From: Chloroflexi bacterium CFX6
GTDB lineage: Bacteria; Chloroflexota; Anaerolineae; Anaerolineales; Villigracilaceae
NCBI GenBank assembly: GCA_030263595.1
Contig: SZPG01000001.1
Location: 1-64,000 of the forward strand
DNA: 64,000 nucleotides
Direction: 5' to 3'
The translations under genes and the position numbers were made by a program. This document shows, piece after piece, positions 1 to 39,400 of the stretch; the stretch's first letter is position 1, and each line of letters starts with the position of its first letter. Below the pieces are notes generated by a model, which saw only the letters and a program-made list of their open reading frames with translations, was not told the DNA's origin and did no database searches.

Positions 1-123
1 CGACTCCTTCAAACTCTGCTCCCTGCTTATCTTCTTCCCTCCCAGCAACTCCTTCCAAAACTCCTCGTCATACCTGCGTGACTCCCCTTCGGGCAGGCAG
101 CGGCAGGGACATCCTGACCGAGA
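1..123 (-). pseudogene. Relic copy of the herA 3' end
   Basis: Read on the minus strand this stretch encodes RYDEEFWKELLGG followed by KKISREQSLKES, clearly related to the C-terminus of the HerA-type ATPase at 911-2353 (RYDEEFWKELLGGGG, then KRSKEQNLKELGF). At DNA level 39-75 matches 961-997 at 35 of 37 positions, and weaker similarity runs on to about 123. Upstream of RYDEE the frame is broken, so it is a relic rather than a gene, and its final codons lie beyond the left edge of the window. It stands downstream of the Phd/VapC pair, so the pair is bracketed by two copies of the herA end. Confidence 0.85.
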
Positions 124-133
124 AACAAGGGAT

Positions 134-571
134 TCATTTGTATCCAATTCCCTTGACCCATTTCACCTTGAATGGTTTCAACGTATTAATCAATCTCATA
201 TCCGCCGTCCAAAGATCAATATCCATCCATTCGGCTAAAGCGAGATAATGGGCATCGTAAGTGGCAGGGAGGTTATATTCCATCGCTATTTCACGAGCGC
301 GCAGATGTAAGTTCGCTTCATTGATCAGATTGATCGGCAGGTCGAGAGCAAGTTCGAGCGCCTTCCCGATTGTTTCAGGCGAGAGAACTTTATTCCTTTG
401 TTGTTGATATAAACCGTTTGTCACTTCGTAAAACAACAAAGTCGGCGCCACCAGGCGAACTTCATCCTCAACCCATGATTGCCACAATCCTTTGATGGCG
501 TCATCGTCAGGTTGCAGGGCGCGCCGCAGGACAATGCTGGCATCAACGCAGACTGTCGAGGAGTTGCTCAT
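134..571 (-). CDS. VapC-like PIN-domain toxin
   Basis: PIN-domain endoribonuclease of a type II toxin-antitoxin pair; family members cleave tRNA or rRNA in a Mg-dependent way. The N-terminal motif VCVDASIVLRRA supplies the first acidic residue, and the C-terminal block YDAHYLALAEWMDIDLWTAD supplies the conserved acidic cluster. About 145 residues, normal for the family. The reading frame is open for 12 codons further upstream, but ATG at 571 (MSNSSTV) gives the usual short overlap with the antitoxin gene, whose stop is at 543-545. Translational coupling with the antitoxin is likely. The gene ends about 10 nt before the relic of the herA 3' end. Confidence 0.88.
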   Translation of the reverse strand: MSNSSTVCVDASIVLRRALQPDDDAIKGLWQSWVEDEVRLVAPTLLFYEVTNGLYQQQRNKVLSPETIGKALELALDLPINLINEANLHLRAREIAMEYNLPATYDAHYLALAEWMDIDLWTADMRLINTLKPFKVKWVKGIGYK

Positions 572-842
572 CGCGTTCTTCCCTTCCCTGGCGGATGACT
601 TCGGCAAGATCAGGCAATTTCCTGCCCTTCAACTCAGCACGGATTCGAACGTGCAGGTCGTCGAAACGCTTTTGAAGATTGGTTTTGTCGTTTGCCGCGA
701 CCAATTGATCGTATGCCTTCTTGGAAAGGACGACGACTTCGGGTTTTCCGCCGCGTTCGACGATAACAGGACCGATTTTTGCCTGCTTCATTACTTCACC
801 GAAATTGATTCGGGCTTTTGTTGCGCTGATTGTCTTGAGCAT
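543..842 (-). CDS. Phd/YefM-type antitoxin
   Basis: 99-residue antitoxin of the Phd/YefM type. The N-terminal half has the family pattern: MLKTISATKARINFGEVMKQAK, then PVIVERGGKPEVVVLSKKAYDQL, a small DNA-binding fold. The charged C-terminal helix (from about residue 55) should wrap the toxin. The ATG at 842 follows an AT-rich leader with a perfect 12-bp inverted repeat at 852-879, the likely autoregulatory operator. The gene overlaps vapC by 29 nt. Its AT-rich promoter contrasts with the GC-rich neighbours, which fits acquisition as a cassette. It lies 68 nt downstream of the herA stop, in the same orientation. Confidence 0.87.
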   Translation of the reverse strand: MLKTISATKARINFGEVMKQAKIGPVIVERGGKPEVVVLSKKAYDQLVAANDKTNLQKRFDDLHVRIRAELKGRKLPDLAEVIRQGREERDEQLLDSLR

Positions 843-851
843 GGTTACCTC

Positions 852-879
852 TTGATTAATTAACGAGTTAATTAATCAA
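852..879 (-). promoter_or_regulatory. Toxin-antitoxin operator, perfect palindrome
   Basis: Arms TTGATTAATTAA (852-863) and TTAATTAATCAA (868-879) are perfect reverse complements separated by CGAG. The palindrome lies 10 nt upstream of the antitoxin ATG, where Phd/YefM antitoxins usually bind to repress their own operon. Binding by this antitoxin is inferred. Confidence 0.75.
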
Positions 880-910
880 AAATATACTCCCAAACGATGA
901 GGCTGTCAAA

Positions 911-2353
911 TCAAAACCCCAACTCCTTCAAATTCTGCTCCTTGCTCCTCTTTCCTCCGCCTCCCAACAACTCCTTCCAAAACTCCTCATCATACCTCCT
1001 TGACCTCACCGGCAGCGGCATAGGCACACCCCAACCAAGCAACAGAACTTCCTCCTTCGGTTGGAGACGCGCCAACATGCCGCGCAAAGCCTCCCGTCCC
1101 GCGAGACCCGAAAGCACCGCGTGGATGTCGTCCTCGTCGCCGAGCCAGCCAGAGATGCGCGTCCCCAACTGTGACATCACCTCGTCGTAAATTTGCGACG
1201 GGCGCTGGTCCACGATCAACAGCGTCACGTAATACTTGCGCAGTTCGCGCGCGATGGTCGCGAAGGTGGTCTGCGCCGCCATCTCGCGGTTCAACAACTT
1301 GTGCGCCTCCTCCACTACGATGATCAACTGGCGCGGCTCCTCTTTTCCATGAGTTCTGAACGCGTTGGTCTTATGCTCCCACGCGTTGCGAATCTTGCGC
1401 GTCAACAGATTCGACACGAGCAGATAATCCAAATCGCTTTCGTGTTCGCCGAACGACAGGATCACGTGCTGTCCATTTTCGAGCGAGGCGATAATTTCCT
1501 TCACGCTGTCCGCGGCGGGCTTCTCGACGATATACGGCTTGCCGAACAACCGCCGCAGTTTATCGTGCAGAGCCTCCGCTGCCGCCACGTTCACGCCGTT
1601 CGCGTTCGCCCACGCCGCCACACTATCGGGGTGCGGCACGCGCTTCGTCTTGCCTCTTTCATCTTCGATTTCAATCTCTTCCCGATTCATCGCTTTGAAA
1701 CGCGCAAACCAATCGCCTCTGAATGACGAATACAATGCTTCGAGTGTTGTGGGTGTGGTCTCTTTCAGATTCAATTCGCGCGTCAACGTTTCGATATCAG
1801 AGGTGGAAATGTCTCCCGTGGAGATTTCCAGATTAAAGTCCGGGACCTGCCCCCGAATCGTTGATCCTGCTCCCAAGCCGACGACTCGCACCTTCGACTT
1901 GAACTTGGTCTTCAGTCCCGTCACGGCATTTTTCGTGTCTGACGCCACATCGTCAAAGCCGTACTCGTTGTGCATATCCAGCACGAACACGGAGGCTTTG
2001 TTGTAGTGCATCAATCCCGCTAAAACAAGCCGCGTGAGAAACGACTTGCCCGTCCCCGTCGCCCCGAACACCCCCGACGATCTCTGCACGAACTTCTCCA
2101 AATCAATGCACACAGGATGATTCTGCTCGCGCGTATACCCGATCACAAAGTTACCCTTTTCTGCGGGGTCGCCGAAGATCTCTGCGATGTCGCCTTCATT
2201 CGCTAGAAATACCTGCGCGTGATGCGGCGGCACATTCTTGACAGGCAATATGCGCGGCTCATCCTTCAAGCCTGCATCAATTTTTCCACGCCAATCCTTA
2301 TAAGCGGGCGTCCCCAATTCAGGACCCACCTCCAGCATCAGGTTCGGCAGCAC
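911..2353 (-). CDS. herA: HerA-type DNA translocase ATPase (5' end frameshifted)
   Basis: HerA-family hexameric ATPase, which pairs with NurA nuclease to resect DNA ends. Walker A is GATGTGKS at residues 97-104 of this frame, the region after it reads VFVLDMHNEYGFDD, and a Walker B-like block (QLIIVVEEAHKLL) lies near residue 350, followed by RELRKYYVTLLIVDQRPSQI. The frame is open upstream of the ATG at 2353 to about 2521, encoding GAFVVIQSGEWNYYGIVTD, the second half of the N-terminal HAS barrel. The true start lies further up in another frame (see 2354-2585). nurA is about 3 kb upstream on the same strand. Either the gene is a recent pseudogene or the sequence has a small deletion. Confidence 0.85.
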   Translation of the reverse strand: MLPNLMLEVGPELGTPAYKDWRGKIDAGLKDEPRILPVKNVPPHHAQVFLANEGDIAEIFGDPAEKGNFVIGYTREQNHPVCIDLEKFVQRSSGVFGATGTGKSFLTRLVLAGLMHYNKASVFVLDMHNEYGFDDVASDTKNAVTGLKTKFKSKVRVVGLGAGSTIRGQVPDFNLEISTGDISTSDIETLTRELNLKETTPTTLEALYSSFRGDWFARFKAMNREEIEIEDERGKTKRVPHPDSVAAWANANGVNVAAAEALHDKLRRLFGKPYIVEKPAADSVKEIIASLENGQHVILSFGEHESDLDYLLVSNLLTRKIRNAWEHKTNAFRTHGKEEPRQLIIVVEEAHKLLNREMAAQTTFATIARELRKYYVTLLIVDQRPSQIYDEVMSQLGTRISGWLGDEDDIHAVLSGLAGREALRGMLARLQPKEEVLLLGWGVPMPLPVRSRRYDEEFWKELLGGGGKRSKEQNLKELGF

Positions 2354-2651: not shown

Positions 2652-4058
2652 TCATGGATATGGCGCCGGCGGACCGACCACCTGAATATCATAATAGTCT
2701 GAATAACAGACTGTGGGCCAATACTTTGGATTGTCCGTTGGTATTTCCAGCCTCGCCCAGTTGCTCATGTCAGGGATATTCACAGATTCAAAACCATTGG
2801 CTTTTGCCTGAAGTATGATTTCGTCAACCCGGTCCCATCTCCCGGCAAAATCAATAAAAACGGCGCGCGTGGAATACAGATTCCAGGATGTTTTGAGAGT
2901 GGAAAACCCCATCATCAACAGAATCGGGAGAATCAGGAGCCCGGTTTTGTTCCATGCGGCGTTATATCTTTTCGACAACGTGCTTCCCAGCAAAAAACCT
3001 GCACTAAGAATGCCTGCCACAAGAAAGAACGCCGGGATGATCATCGTTCGAGGCGGGGGAGATTCGAAGTACCCATATACCCCCGGTGGAAAACATGCCA
3101 GTGAAATCGCAATTCCCCCGATAAATAGCGCGGGGATAATATAAGCATTGACCGGAGCGAGTTCCTTGTAATGACCGCCGATCCATGCCACTGCCAGTGT
3201 TGCGCCAATAACGCCCAGGGATTTTTCGGGCGTGGAAAATAAACCCGCCAGAAAATCCACATAGCTTTGAAGCGAGATGATCGTCAATTCCGAGAGGTTT
3301 GGCGTAATGGGCGATGGTCCCAGCCGGATCGCGTTACCGGGAGCCATAACTACTACGATCAATGAGAGGATGCCGCCCGCCGAACTCGAAAACAGTATTG
3401 CAAGATCCGTTCCGGGTCTGTTGGGAAGTTTAAGAATGTATAGACTGATAACAAACAGCAGGAAGGCGAGTTGCGCAATCGCAAATGTTTCGCTAAGACC
3501 GCCGCTAAGAAAGAAGAGGAGAAAACCGAGTATTGAACTTGTCAGCAGGCGGCTCTTAAATCTTTCGACGGCAAGTTGAAAAATCAACACATAAGCGGTT
3601 AACACCAATAACGGCAGCGCGTAGGAACGCATGCCATTCCACCAGAACAAGGATTGCCGAATATCCGGGCTGAGAGTAAATACAAGATACAGAAAAATAC
3701 CGGCCAGAGTCAATGCAACAGCAAAATTTTTGCCTTTCGACTTGCGGAGATACACATACGCTATCAACGTGGAAAATGCCAGCCAGAGGAAAATGGCGAC
3801 CGGCACAACGTAGTGCATTTTATGTGGTCCCAGGGCGAAGGTGAGGATGAACCAGTCCGCCGCATAAGACGAATATCGCCCGCTCCAATTAAGATACCAA
3901 TACCATATCGAACGCAGCAATCCCAGGCGATCGGAAAAATAGATCGAGCATAGATCGTCCGCCAGCAAGCGTGTGAAATTTCCAATGTACGCATAGCTTA
4001 CAAGACCGATATTTGCGAACACAGCGAGGAAATTGACTGTCAAACTTCGTTTTTGCAT
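2652..4058 (-). CDS. Polytopic membrane protein, DUF6056-like
   Basis: 468-residue membrane protein with about ten to eleven hydrophobic segments. After the first segment it has TRLLADDLCSIYFSD, and further on SPDIRQSLFWWNGMRSYALP; these loop motifs resemble the DUF6056 family of GT-C-like membrane proteins. An acidic pair in the first extracytoplasmic loop is a feature of GT-C glycosyltransferases, so a role in cell-surface glycosylation is possible but not shown. It sits between the 197-residue protein gene and herA, 27 nt downstream of the former, and looks like a later insertion into a herA-nurA operon. A purine-rich AGGAATAGAAG precedes the start. Confidence 0.6.
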   Translation of the reverse strand: MQKRSLTVNFLAVFANIGLVSYAYIGNFTRLLADDLCSIYFSDRLGLLRSIWYWYLNWSGRYSSYAADWFILTFALGPHKMHYVVPVAIFLWLAFSTLIAYVYLRKSKGKNFAVALTLAGIFLYLVFTLSPDIRQSLFWWNGMRSYALPLLVLTAYVLIFQLAVERFKSRLLTSSILGFLLFFLSGGLSETFAIAQLAFLLFVISLYILKLPNRPGTDLAILFSSSAGGILSLIVVVMAPGNAIRLGPSPITPNLSELTIISLQSYVDFLAGLFSTPEKSLGVIGATLAVAWIGGHYKELAPVNAYIIPALFIGGIAISLACFPPGVYGYFESPPPRTMIIPAFFLVAGILSAGFLLGSTLSKRYNAAWNKTGLLILPILLMMGFSTLKTSWNLYSTRAVFIDFAGRWDRVDEIILQAKANGFESVNIPDMSNWARLEIPTDNPKYWPTVCYSDYYDIQVVGPPAPYP

Positions 4059-4774: not shown

Positions 4775-5527
4775 TCACATTCTTGCTTCCAACATTTCAA
4801 TAATCTTCTCTTTATTCGTTGGATGATACGTCAGCAATTCACCATCATAGTACAGACCCATCACACCATAGGCGCACGGCAAATTCTGTGCTTCACGCGT
4901 CGTCGTGGATTCCACAATATGGACAGGGAGGTTAAGTTCCCGTCCAATCTGCCTGATTCCCTCGTCCATTACATACGCGTATGGACACTGTGCGCTTTTG
5001 ATGAGAGTTAATCCATTCGGATATTTATTCCCTTTGCGCCAATTCTTTTTGAAACGCGGCAGGGGCGCATCCGCAGAATTACGTTTAACCAACAAGTCAA
5101 AGGAAGGCGGCGCATGGTCCGCCATTTCAAAGCCGTTCTTCAGGAAGATCTTCGGGGTGGGAAGCCAGTGAGTATTGCTTACAACCACCGCGACGCCATA
5201 ATAATCCTTTGCATCCTTCCAGCAATCTTCGAGCAGTTTCCCGCCGTATCCGTGACCTCTGTTCCGACCGATGACCCACAAACAATGGATGAACAAATAG
5301 CCTTTCGCGTCCACGCCGCGCCAGGCATGCTCACCGGGGATATATTCGATGAAACCCGCCTTGCGCCCGTTGACCTGATAGATCTTGTAACGCAATCCCT
5401 CGCGGAAACGAGCTTTCAGCCACTCGTTCTTCCGGTGGTTCCCTTCGAGATAACGCCCGGAGAGTCCGCAGAAGGTACGGTAGTCATGCAGGTTGTCTTC
5501 TGTAAGCGTGACAATTTCCTCTTTCAT
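4775..5527 (-). CDS. GNAT N-acetyltransferase with YoaP-like C-terminal domain
   Basis: 250 residues. The N-terminal half is a GNAT fold; the acetyl-CoA loop is visible as VIGRNRGHGYGGKLLEDCW (about residues 85-103). The C-terminal part, from about residue 165 (NGLTLIKSAQCPYAYVMDEG), matches the thioredoxin-like YoaP extension, with a single cysteine at the CPY position. The acceptor substrate is unknown. Its ATG at 5527 overlaps the nurA stop in an ATGA, so the two are translationally coupled. Co-transcription with nurA does not by itself imply a role in DNA repair. Confidence 0.8.
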   Translation of the reverse strand: MKEEIVTLTEDNLHDYRTFCGLSGRYLEGNHRKNEWLKARFREGLRYKIYQVNGRKAGFIEYIPGEHAWRGVDAKGYLFIHCLWVIGRNRGHGYGGKLLEDCWKDAKDYYGVAVVVSNTHWLPTPKIFLKNGFEMADHAPPSFDLLVKRNSADAPLPRFKKNWRKGNKYPNGLTLIKSAQCPYAYVMDEGIRQIGRELNLPVHIVESTTTREAQNLPCAYGVMGLYYDGELLTYHPTNKEKIIEMLEARM

Positions 5528-6717
5528 CGTTTGTATGACATCCTTCCTCCCCTGTCTTTCGCCGATTGCTTATTCGAGCCTTCGTCAAGTTCTTCGTTAT
5601 TTCGGCGCAGTTCCATCGTCAGCAATTGTTCGATCTGTTGTTTCTCTTCGTTCTTCACCACCGCAACCTCGTGCGCGCGGTGGAGCAGATACGGATACGG
5701 TCTGCTCCCCATCATGCGGCATTGTTCAACCAATACCCCATGCAGCAAATCCAATTTTTCTTTATCGTCCGCCACCCACTTGGGGACTTCGACGCGCACG
5801 GGCCAGGGATGTCCTTCGGTTCCCACATTCAAATAGAAGAAATGCAGTTCCAACACGCCCTTGTAATTCTTCTCCGAACTCGATTGGATCTTGAAGACCG
5901 CCGAGCGATAACCGGGTTTTAGCAATGGGTTTTCCCGCTCGCCATACAGCCATCGGTCGCTCACGCCGCGTAAAGGGCGGAATTCGCGCAAGTGGGACAA
6001 ATTGTCAATTTGTCCTACGGTTGCCAATTCCAACAAACGCACAACCAGGTCGGCGGAGGGTTTATCCACGTAGCCCGCTGTGATAACGCCGCGCGTTTGC
6101 AGGCGCGAGAGGATGGTTTTGTATCTATCCACGAATTCACTATAAGCCTGCGCGTCATCGCCTTTGGCGCCCCACAACTCGATGGGACCGTCGGTGAACG
6201 TGACAACCTGTCCCTTGATGCCTTTGGATAACTTATCCAGTTTTTCGCGCTCGGCGAGGTCGCGTTTGAGCGCCACCATCCCATCGGACATGGGAACCCC
6301 GTTCGGGAACAGGTCGTCGCCGAAGAGCAGTTCGCTTTCGGTCGAGATATCGGGGGACTCGCCGGAGCTCAACTTCATGATGATCGCGCCGACGTTCACC
6401 AGCCCGAACTGCACGGAAGCGTGACGGTCCGGGTTGATCTGCGAACCGTCGGCGGCGATGAGGGTTGGGGAAACAGAAGCAGGCTGAACGTCGAAGGAGG
6501 AAGCGAGGTTCTCGTCCAGGGGATAAGCGCATCGGATGTTCGGGTCAACTGCTTTGGCGGAATCCACTTTATCCCGAAGGAAATCCAGTTCAGAGGTGTA
6601 TGTGTCGAGCAGGTCACGCGCTTTGAGACGGCGCTCCTCGAGAGTCTTCTTCCGTTCGCGTGCGCCTTTGCCGATTTCATGGATCTTTTCGTAGACCTGC
6701 TGGTAATCTATGGGCAT
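5524..6717 (-). CDS. nurA: NurA-domain nuclease
   Basis: 397-residue NurA-family nuclease, the exo/endonuclease partner of HerA in DNA end processing. The first Mn-binding aspartate lies in LIAADGSQINPDRH (D90), the second in VVTFTDGPIELW (D176), and later parts carry YVDKPSADLVVRLLE and HRAHEVAVVKNEE. The N-terminal 50 residues are predicted coiled coil. Within the gene, 5995-6015 is a perfect 10-bp inverted repeat (GGACAAATTG, T, CAATTTGTCC), encoding part of LATVGQIDNLSHL, apparently a dispersed repeat accommodated in frame. First gene of the minus-strand cluster running to herA. Confidence 0.88.
   Translation of the reverse strand: MPIDYQQVYEKIHEIGKGARERKKTLEERRLKARDLLDTYTSELDFLRDKVDSAKAVDPNIRCAYPLDENLASSFDVQPASVSPTLIAADGSQINPDRHASVQFGLVNVGAIIMKLSSGESPDISTESELLFGDDLFPNGVPMSDGMVALKRDLAEREKLDKLSKGIKGQVVTFTDGPIELWGAKGDDAQAYSEFVDRYKTILSRLQTRGVITAGYVDKPSADLVVRLLELATVGQIDNLSHLREFRPLRGVSDRWLYGERENPLLKPGYRSAVFKIQSSSEKNYKGVLELHFFYLNVGTEGHPWPVRVEVPKWVADDKEKLDLLHGVLVEQCRMMGSRPYPYLLHRAHEVAVVKNEEKQQIEQLLTMELRRNNEELDEGSNKQSAKDRGGRMSYKR
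5995..6015. repeat. Short palindrome inside nurA
   Basis: GGACAAATTG and CAATTTGTCC are perfect reverse complements with a 1-nt spacer. A similar hairpin (GGACAATT, 5 nt, AATTGTCC) lies at 7796-7816 in the leader of another gene, so this seems to be a dispersed small palindrome. Confidence 0.65.
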
Positions 6718-37992: not shown

Positions 37993-38038
37993 CTCTATAA
38001 CGGCTGTTTCATCGGCATGCCCGGCTTGCAGGGATATT
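37993..38038 (-). pseudogene. Relic of the rsmG 3' end
   Basis: The 35 nt from 37994 on are identical to 38591-38625, the end of rsmG, and in frame encode KYPCKPGMPMKQPL then TAG, against KYPRKPGMPMKQPL in rsmG. Weaker similarity of the frame (AAKVSL) runs on to about 38060. It lies downstream (minus strand) of DUF2442. Confidence 0.88.
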
Positions 38039-38086
38039 TTAGCGATACCTTCGCGGCTGCGCCTGTTGGCTGCAAAATGATCCCCC

Positions 38087-38353
38087 TTACGCGGTGACAG
38101 GTGCGGTCGGCGTCTCCTCGGCTTCCATTTGATATAAATAATCAGGGGCGAAATCCGCGCCGTTGGGCCAGGTCACAGTGCGCGAATCCGGGTCAACGTA
38201 GGCTTTTGCAAAATAAGAGGGATCGCGAAGCGGCTCGAAAATCGGACCATAAAGTTCAGGACGCAAATTGACACGCTTTTGGACGCCGTTATCGAAGGTC
38301 AACTCAAGCGAGTAGGCGCCCACAACTCTTACCTCTGTAATATGAATAATCAT
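38087..38353 (-). CDS. DUF2442 protein (toxin-antitoxin-like partner)
   Basis: 88 residues from ATG 38353, with AGGAG upstream. DUF2442 pattern: ITEVRVVGAYSLELTFDNGV, KRVNLRPELYGPIFEPLRDP, YVDPDSRTVTWPNGADFAPD. The family is usually paired with DUF4160 and has the gene-neighbourhood behaviour of a toxin-antitoxin module, but its activity is not established. It follows the truncated DUF4160 gene with a 14-nt gap. The 44 nt after its stop contain nothing obvious before the rsmG relic. Confidence 0.88.
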   Translation of the reverse strand: MIIHITEVRVVGAYSLELTFDNGVQKRVNLRPELYGPIFEPLRDPSYFAKAYVDPDSRTVTWPNGADFAPDYLYQMEAEETPTAPVTA

Positions 38354-38367
38354 TTGCAAATCTCCTG

Positions 38368-38590
38368 TCAATCCAAAGGTTCGATCTGATGCAATGGCAA
38401 CCCGGCCCTTGCCAGCTCCCAATTCGCTCGAAGTTCCGCCTGATGAATTGCCGCCCATTCGAAAACTTTGGAACGAGTCGCTCGTGACAGGCTCCCTTCG
38501 AGGATCATGATTGGATCAATGCCTACTTCGGCTTCATCCCCGGCGTATTCAGCGTGGAAATGAGGCGGCTGGCGCTCACAACGCGTAGCC
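38368..38590 (-). pseudogene. DUF4160 gene lacking its 5' end
   Basis: The minus-strand frame reads QPPHFHAEYAGDEAEVGIDP, IMILEGSLSRATRSKVFEWA and ANWELARAGLPLHQIEPLD then stop, clearly DUF4160. The first ~18 residues usual in the family, up to the HFH motif, are absent: the open frame continues backwards straight into the rsmG 3' end in another frame and has no suitable start codon. The insertion that placed the cassette behind rsmG thus cut off the start of DUF4160. Confidence 0.85.
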
Positions 38591-39301
38591 CTATAACGGC
38601 TGTTTCATCGGCATGCCCGGCTTGCGCGGATACTTGGGAGGCGTCGCCGCGACCTTCTCCACGATCACGAGGTAACGATCATCCGCCACGCCCGGCAAAT
38701 GGACCGGGATCAACTGCTCCAGTTTTCCGCCCAATAGTTTCATCGCCTTTTCCGCGGACTGCGCCTCGGCGGGTCCGCTTTCGCCTTTTTGCGCGAGCAT
38801 CCGTCCGCCGATCTTCACCAGTGGAATGAGGTATTCGCTCAACACGTTGAGGTTCGCCACCGCGCGGGCGATCGCCCAATCGTAACATTCGCGGTGCTTC
38901 GGGTTATGTCCCAGGTCTTCCGCGCGTTTGTGGACGACGTCCACGTCCTCCAAGCCCAGCACGCCGACGATGTGCTGGCAGAACATGGCTTTCTTGCCGA
39001 CCGATTCGACCAGCGTCAACTTCATGTTCGGGTAGAGAATTTTGAGGGGAAGGCCCGGGAACCCCGCGCCGGTTCCAACGTCAATGAGGCGAGCCGGGGG
39101 ATTCGCCTTCCACGCCAGCACGCACGAGAACGAATCCAAAAAATGCTTCGTGCGGATGGAATCCAGGTCACGGATGGCGGTCAGGTTGAACTTCTGGTTC
39201 CATGCCATCAGTTCCTTTTCGTAGGTGATGAGCGACATCACCTGCCGCCCGGTCACGTGGACGTGGAACAATTCGAGCGCGTCGCGAACGAGTTTTTCCA
39301 T
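38591..39301 (-). CDS. rsmG: 16S rRNA (guanine527-N7)-methyltransferase
   Basis: 236 residues. SAM-binding motif RLIDVGTGAGFPGLPLKILY, then LTLVESVGKKAMFCQHIV and AIARAVANLNVLSEYLIPLV typical of RsmG (GidB). Methylates G527 of 16S rRNA. ATG 39301 is preceded on the minus strand by TATAAT with a 7-nt gap, so the mRNA should be leaderless; an upstream extension of the frame enters the neighbouring terminator. Its last 35 nt are duplicated at 37994-38028. Confidence 0.93.
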   Translation of the reverse strand: MEKLVRDALELFHVHVTGRQVMSLITYEKELMAWNQKFNLTAIRDLDSIRTKHFLDSFSCVLAWKANPPARLIDVGTGAGFPGLPLKILYPNMKLTLVESVGKKAMFCQHIVGVLGLEDVDVVHKRAEDLGHNPKHRECYDWAIARAVANLNVLSEYLIPLVKIGGRMLAQKGESGPAEAQSAEKAMKLLGGKLEQLIPVHLPGVADDRYLVIVEKVAATPPKYPRKPGMPMKQPL

Positions 39302-39308
39302 TGAGTGG

Positions 39309-39314
39309 ATTATA
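39309..39314 (-). promoter_or_regulatory. -10 box of rsmG, leaderless
   Basis: TATAAT on the minus strand, 7 nt (CCACTCA), then ATG. A start site 6-8 nt after the -10 box would coincide with the A of ATG. Confidence 0.7.
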
Positions 39315-39335
39315 CATGGTTGCGCAGCGCGATGT

Positions 39336-39375
39336 AAATCAAAAGACCCGGCAGGCTTCCAAACCTGTCGGGTCT
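39336..39375 (-). terminator. Terminator of the DUF4349 gene
   Basis: On the minus strand AAGACCCGACAGG (39375-39363) pairs with CCTGCCGGGTCTT (39355-39343), one mismatch, followed by TTGATTT. Confidence 0.82.
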
Positions 39376-39400
39376 TCCGTATATCATCCGTCACCGAAGA

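Follow-up and report, generated by a model that had tools for sequence, protein, structure and literature searches.

Toxin–antitoxin (TA) cassettes probably carry a copy of the 3′ end of a core gene, insert at this end by homologous recombination, cap the gene with the imported copy and displace the native tail. As far as the comparison of sequences goes, we demonstrate for herA of Anaerolineales the recurrence of such displaced tails (hereafter relics), their confinement to a single strand, their limit at the stop codon, the TA nature of the cargo, the linkage between tail and cargo, and, in several relatives, the combination of a native relic with a foreign cap; on the same footing we demonstrate a reciprocal hybrid structure in herA locus L148 and in the mutA gene of genome G015. 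TA operons are believed to move from one chromosome to another although such small units have neither a transposase nor an integrase.

The herA locus in the window

The window, i.e. the whole stretch of 64,000 nucleotides analysed here, starts with base 1 of its contig, in an assembly of 4.07 Mb and 141 contigs whose closest named relatives are MAGs of Anaerolineales (Chloroflexota), one of them labelled Villigracilaceae. The features at its left edge are as follows:

1..128, minus strand: displaced herA 3′-end relic, cut by the contig edge (herA-tail DNA profile, E 3.2e-20)
39..75, minus strand: relic copy of the conserved core (RYDEEFWKELLGG region), 35/37 nt identical to 961–997
134..607, minus strand: predicted PIN-domain toxin (VapC), Pfam PIN (PF01850) 7.3e-6 and PIN_2 4.3e-6; likely start at the ATG near 571 (MSNSSTVCVDAS...)
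543..842, minus strand: predicted Phd/YefM antitoxin, Pfam PhdYeFM_antitox (PF02604) 3.3e-11
843..910, minus strand: putative TA promoter/operator region, TTGACA..TATATT right after the herA stop
911..2353, minus strand: herA, DUF87 9.8e-27 and HerA_C 1e-5
961..997, minus strand: conserved core copy in intact herA, counterpart of 39–75

The initial annotation had recognised the C-terminal block of HerA at the left edge, on the reverse strand, and this was confirmed at the protein level, where 4–96 (minus strand) was 80% identical to HerA residues 447–477 (E 4.7e-6), and with the DNA profile of herA tails, which matched the relic 782–908 nt beyond the herA stop codon (E 3.2e-20). The similarity extends over about 1–128, equivalent to the final ~44 codons of herA; a small insertion near 80–97 breaks its frame, and the contig edge falls ~11–14 nt short of its expected stop codon. 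The match of 35 out of 37 nt between 39–75 and 961–997 proved exact and, with both strands of the 64 kb searched, 39–75 found no other counterpart reaching even 24/37. A short GC-rich insert in relics (CCTGCCCGNAGGGGAGTC) was considered as a REP-type repeat and rejected as such: it is present in a single copy in the whole genome and marks related relics instead.

The Phd/VapC pair does lie between the two herA tails, as had been proposed, and the Pfam assignments of both proteins hold (3.3e-11 and 7.3e-6, respectively). The Phd/YefM gene precedes that of the PIN toxin and their ORFs overlap at 543–571, as in type II TA systems of the Phd/YefM–PIN (VapC) kind. A near-perfect palindrome of 28 nt in the promoter region (852–879), which matches its own reverse complement, is the probable operator of the pair. 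In comparison with its relatives, herA of the window is devoid of 32 nt after the codons FRVR, and its N-terminal part (~2427–2585, upstream of 2353) is out of frame; the missing stretch reflects a lesion of recent date or, alternatively, a fault of the assembly. NurA is encoded at 5524–6717.

A complete second herA to the left of the relic is geometrically impossible, as herA is read leftwards and any 5′ part would have to be on the right-hand side. An assembly artefact or duplicate was likewise rejected, because ~22 further loci show this architecture with other cargo, and the same recurrence speaks against a tandem gene copy; the relic is a true herA 3′ end. The earlier description of it as a diverged copy and not a duplication artefact stands in so far as there are differences between the tails beyond the core, but the relic is not merely an aged copy of the herA next to it.

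Recurrence and cargo of herA relics

One or two herA 3′-end relics bracketing TA operons were present at ~23 of the ~107 Anaerolineales herA loci, some genomes occurring in both collections used. The search, performed with a profile of the last 150 nt of herA against up to 8 kb downstream of the 107 loci, returned 29 relic matches at E < 1e-3, all on the strand of herA, and no match on the opposite strand. Nearly all relics run to the herA stop codon and end there. At the 5′ side they begin anywhere between about −141 and −32, and the conserved core is missing from about seven of the short ones. Since many contigs end in such repeats, the counts are to be read as minima; most genomes surveyed were MAGs. 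A search with the HerA protein also revealed, in many related genomes, short C-terminal fragments just downstream of the intact gene. Same-strand tail copies within 2.5 kb were found for 19/94 herA genes versus 15/953 other genes; only four of these 15 reach the stop codon, three of them being spurious on inspection and the convincing one belonging to rsmG of the window.

At least seven TA families are situated between herA and its relics, namely Phd/PIN, BrnT/CopG, BrnT with an unnamed partner, AbrB-MazE/PIN_3, FitA/PIN, DUF433/DUF5615 and MNT/HepT, with a HicB-family protein located beyond the relic in G016. A TA homologue was detected within 1 kb at 21/21 scored relic-bearing loci, the seeds having been drawn from relic loci; a Fisher test of the association is partly circular for this reason, and the count alone is used. 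In ten further loci, a TA operon adjoins herA with no relic detectable in the first 1 kb. The rank of a given cassette within the array differs among genera: AbrB/PIN_3, for instance, leads the array in G012, G018 and L142 and takes the second place in L111, L140 and L163.

The interval downstream of herA is a defence hotspot beyond TA units. Larger genes of defence type (DNA methyltransferases, a DpnI-family nuclease and others) were observed there in L107, L108, L110, L041 (G011) and L049 (G025), and genes for RAYT-like transposases of the REP-associated (Y1) type behind herA in L118, L121, L123, L126, L127, L132, L138, L155 and L156. These transposases were considered and rejected, as they are not systematically found beside relics. 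In L067 (G018; oriented positions 2812–3000), a complete divergent herA (67% identity to that of the window) is followed by AbrB/PIN_3 and then by a herA fragment of native type (90% identity), which is cut by the contig end and is apparently a much longer displaced piece.

Relics might also arise incidentally when chromosomes that already differ downstream of herA undergo ordinary homologous exchange, with nothing specific to TA operons. The presence of larger restriction-modification and defence genes without relics in the same interval would agree with this, as would the whole divergent herA of G018 with its native-type 3′ fragment beyond the TA operon. Ordinary exchange, however, leaves no second tail; moreover, the intervals delimited by relics mostly consist of single TA operons, and one mutA cassette with an identical junction occurs in two species (see below), which makes this explanation highly improbable.

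Origin of the two tails at herA, mutA and rsmG

Differences between relics and the herA of the same locus, pooled over codon positions 1, 2 and 3, numbered 61, 52 and 138, respectively. The resulting third-position rate ratio of 2.43 (bootstrap 95% 1.9–3.3) is to be compared with about 2.7 between working herA genes of the genus and with at most ~1.5, by our own estimate, for the neutral decay of a local copy; the two tails have therefore mostly diverged while both were coding.

Furthermore, sequence comparison indicates that the last 60 nt of herA change when the downstream cargo changes. Among pairs of genes with ~92% identity in the body, these 60 nt were 92% identical in the 6 pairs that share their downstream DNA, as against 65.5% in the 86 pairs that do not (Mann-Whitney p 6e-5, the pairs not being independent). 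In L112, G143 and L148, the last 30–60 nt of herA are foreign and it is the relic that looks like the tail found in close relatives. A reciprocal hybrid is present in L148, in which herA combines its native left side with an L122-type end and the relic an L122-type left side with a native-type end, the crossover being placed within a core of ~27 nt. G143 and G120 have in common an unusual tail, ELNPDWGKD, and a first cargo that is the same at 94%. The relic of the window scores higher against the herA tails of L109 (68) and L106 (65), which belong to other species, than against its own herA (56); here either tail may be native, the nearest herA body being only 86% identical. The relics of L115, L140, L142 and L165, in turn, are closest to their own herA, a pattern that would also be expected from local duplication, with the third-position excess equally strong.

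These data bear on the possibility that the TA operon was inserted at the herA 3′ end with a long target duplication, whereby the local tail was doubled and the outer copy decayed. The geometry is the one ascribed to restriction-modification units, which insert with a long (variable) target duplication (Nobusato et al. 2000, according to the passages citing it in PMC3031569 and PMC3874152) and for which it has been argued that addiction counters loss between the direct repeats (PMC3031569, PMC3874152). As in that case, the herA loci contain an addictive pair between long direct repeats of the target with the host gene intact. The relics that have their best match in the adjacent herA also speak for duplication. 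In contrast to it, the cargo at herA is mainly TA, the copy is often imported with the native end displaced, the repeats end at the stop codon, and insertion recurs at one gene across genera. The third-position excess across relics and the change of the tail together with the cargo also count against duplication, and in L112, G143, L148 and mutA of G015, where a foreign cap stands before a native-like relic, the two repeats do not stem from one local copy of the target. We regard target duplication as unlikely and as weakened as a general mechanism, although it could still be the birth route of new cassettes.

A scan for tail copies over ~860 kb and 761 genes from the genome of the window and from G015 led to a second gene. 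In G015 (L345) an antitoxin/PIN pair is bracketed by a tail copy of a gene which we take to be that of methylmalonyl-CoA mutase (mutA). The other matches of the scan that reached a stop codon mostly came from CRISPR-type repeat arrays or were weak or due to paralogues. Relics of mutA were found in G012 (L334), G015 (L345), G021 (L336), G023 (L337) and G025 (L335), several of them bracketing TA operons, and the mutA 3′ end is a second hotspot with gene-tail relics. G010 represents the empty site: the end of its mutA, with the TAA stop and the ACGCTTGAATCC that follows, is present in the G015 relic and absent from the tail of G015 mutA. The cassette at G012 mutA is the same as in G015 (98% over 660 nt) and has the same toxin-to-tail junction, its relic ending in a different, G002-like native tail. 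No other comparison argues as strongly as that of mutA for a cassette that imports its own tail and pushes the native tail aside.

The window harbours a candidate at rsmG as well:

37995..38039, minus strand: rsmG 3′-end relic of 45 nt (93% identity, E 8.9e-13) that extends to the stop codon and ends there
38087..38458, minus strand: DUF2442 ORF between rsmG and the relic, Pfam 2.1e-13
just upstream of the DUF2442 ORF, minus strand: DUF4160 remnant, Pfam 4.7e-5
38591..39394, minus strand: intact rsmG (GidB), Pfam GidB 5e-47

This is probably a further case of the same tail-carrying insertion; no rsmG relic was seen in 30 relatives. A HepT pair lies just beyond the relic.

Mechanism of insertion and comparison with known systems

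The model that we favour considers the Phd/VapC operon as a mobile TA cassette equipped with a short copy of the herA 3′ end, about 30–150 nt. It would enter by homologous recombination between the carried tail and the resident herA tail, either by a single crossover of a circular form or, equivalently, from a linear piece flanked by two tail copies. After the crossover, herA would be complete, capped with the tail of the cassette and followed directly by the TA promoter, and the resident tail would persist as a relic beyond the TA operon. Repeated insertions would generate tandem arrays of the type herA*-TA1-tail*-TA2-tail*. Such insertions would be tolerated exactly there because the host gene stays complete. 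The direct repeats would favour loss of the insert and TA addiction would punish it, so that only addictive cargo would persist.

Host homologous recombination is the presumed agent, since no recombinase was found on the herA contigs tested and none of the viral, phage or plasmid records contained the tail. Neither tyrosine (PF00589) nor serine (PF00239) recombinase genes were found on the herA contigs tested from relic-bearing genomes, and 783 kb of DNA downstream of herA contained one partial serine-recombinase match (G120, 4.4 kb downstream). A carrier element (virus, phage or plasmid) was rejected: the herA tail was absent from viral contigs and from phage and plasmid records, the TA DNA was absent from plasmids, and no circular or free form was seen. 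What counts against the model is that the homologous arms are short (30–150 bp, 75–95% identical) and as such poor RecA substrates, and that relic 5′ ends vary and short relics are devoid of the core.

The outcome at herA, a gene end restored by an imported one with the native end on the far side, is also that of integrative elements which use gene 3′ ends, and TA cassettes could be integrase-less passengers of a site-specific recombinase that acts in trans on the herA 3′ end as attachment site. The crossover of L148 within a core of ~27 nt agrees with such a classical att outcome. On the other hand, the recombinase searches described above revealed no candidate carried by or located beside the cassettes on the tested herA contigs, save for the partial match in G120; the cargo is of ~0.5–1 kb, unlike that of the known elements; relic starts are variable; and no core common to the herA, mutA and rsmG tails was evident by eye. 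We therefore give a recombinase in trans little credence in comparison with host recombination.

Integron cassette arrays are similar in that cassettes of a single operon, frequently a TA operon, stand in tandem with a recombination element repeated after each of them, and differ in that the repeat at herA is the tail of a protein-coding gene and not a known attC, and in that no tyrosine recombinase resides at the locus: IntI was not found at the arrays, in line with the lack of PF00589 on the searched contigs of relic-bearing genomes. The dif (pdif) modules of Acinetobacter plasmids, in which small TA modules are moved between repeated sites (PMC6449649, PMC13141974), resemble the herA cassettes as discrete small TA units between repeats. 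The herA repeats, unlike those, are direct gene-end copies in one orientation and chromosomal, with no Xer site recognised; inverse Xer sites of alternating orientation are not seen, all relics being on the strand of herA. A literature search of partial coverage returned no paper on TA units bracketed by core-gene tails.

A broader and more tentative reading, which we consider possible, treats the 3′ ends of core genes as portable homology arms of recombinase-free, integron-like cassettes, whereby TA operons with a gene-end copy would enter the corresponding gene of other species through host recombination, the C-terminus would be swapped upon each insertion and only addictive cargo would survive between the direct repeats. 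The herA and mutA loci offer a concrete and testable route for TA operons with visible stages, namely the empty site, the cassette, the displaced native tail and the tandem arrays. Turnover of the cargo rewrites the C-terminus of HerA, an ATPase of DNA repair that is otherwise conserved, and such insertions can be sought in any genome by a simple sequence signature, namely the repetition of a gene tail behind a TA operon.
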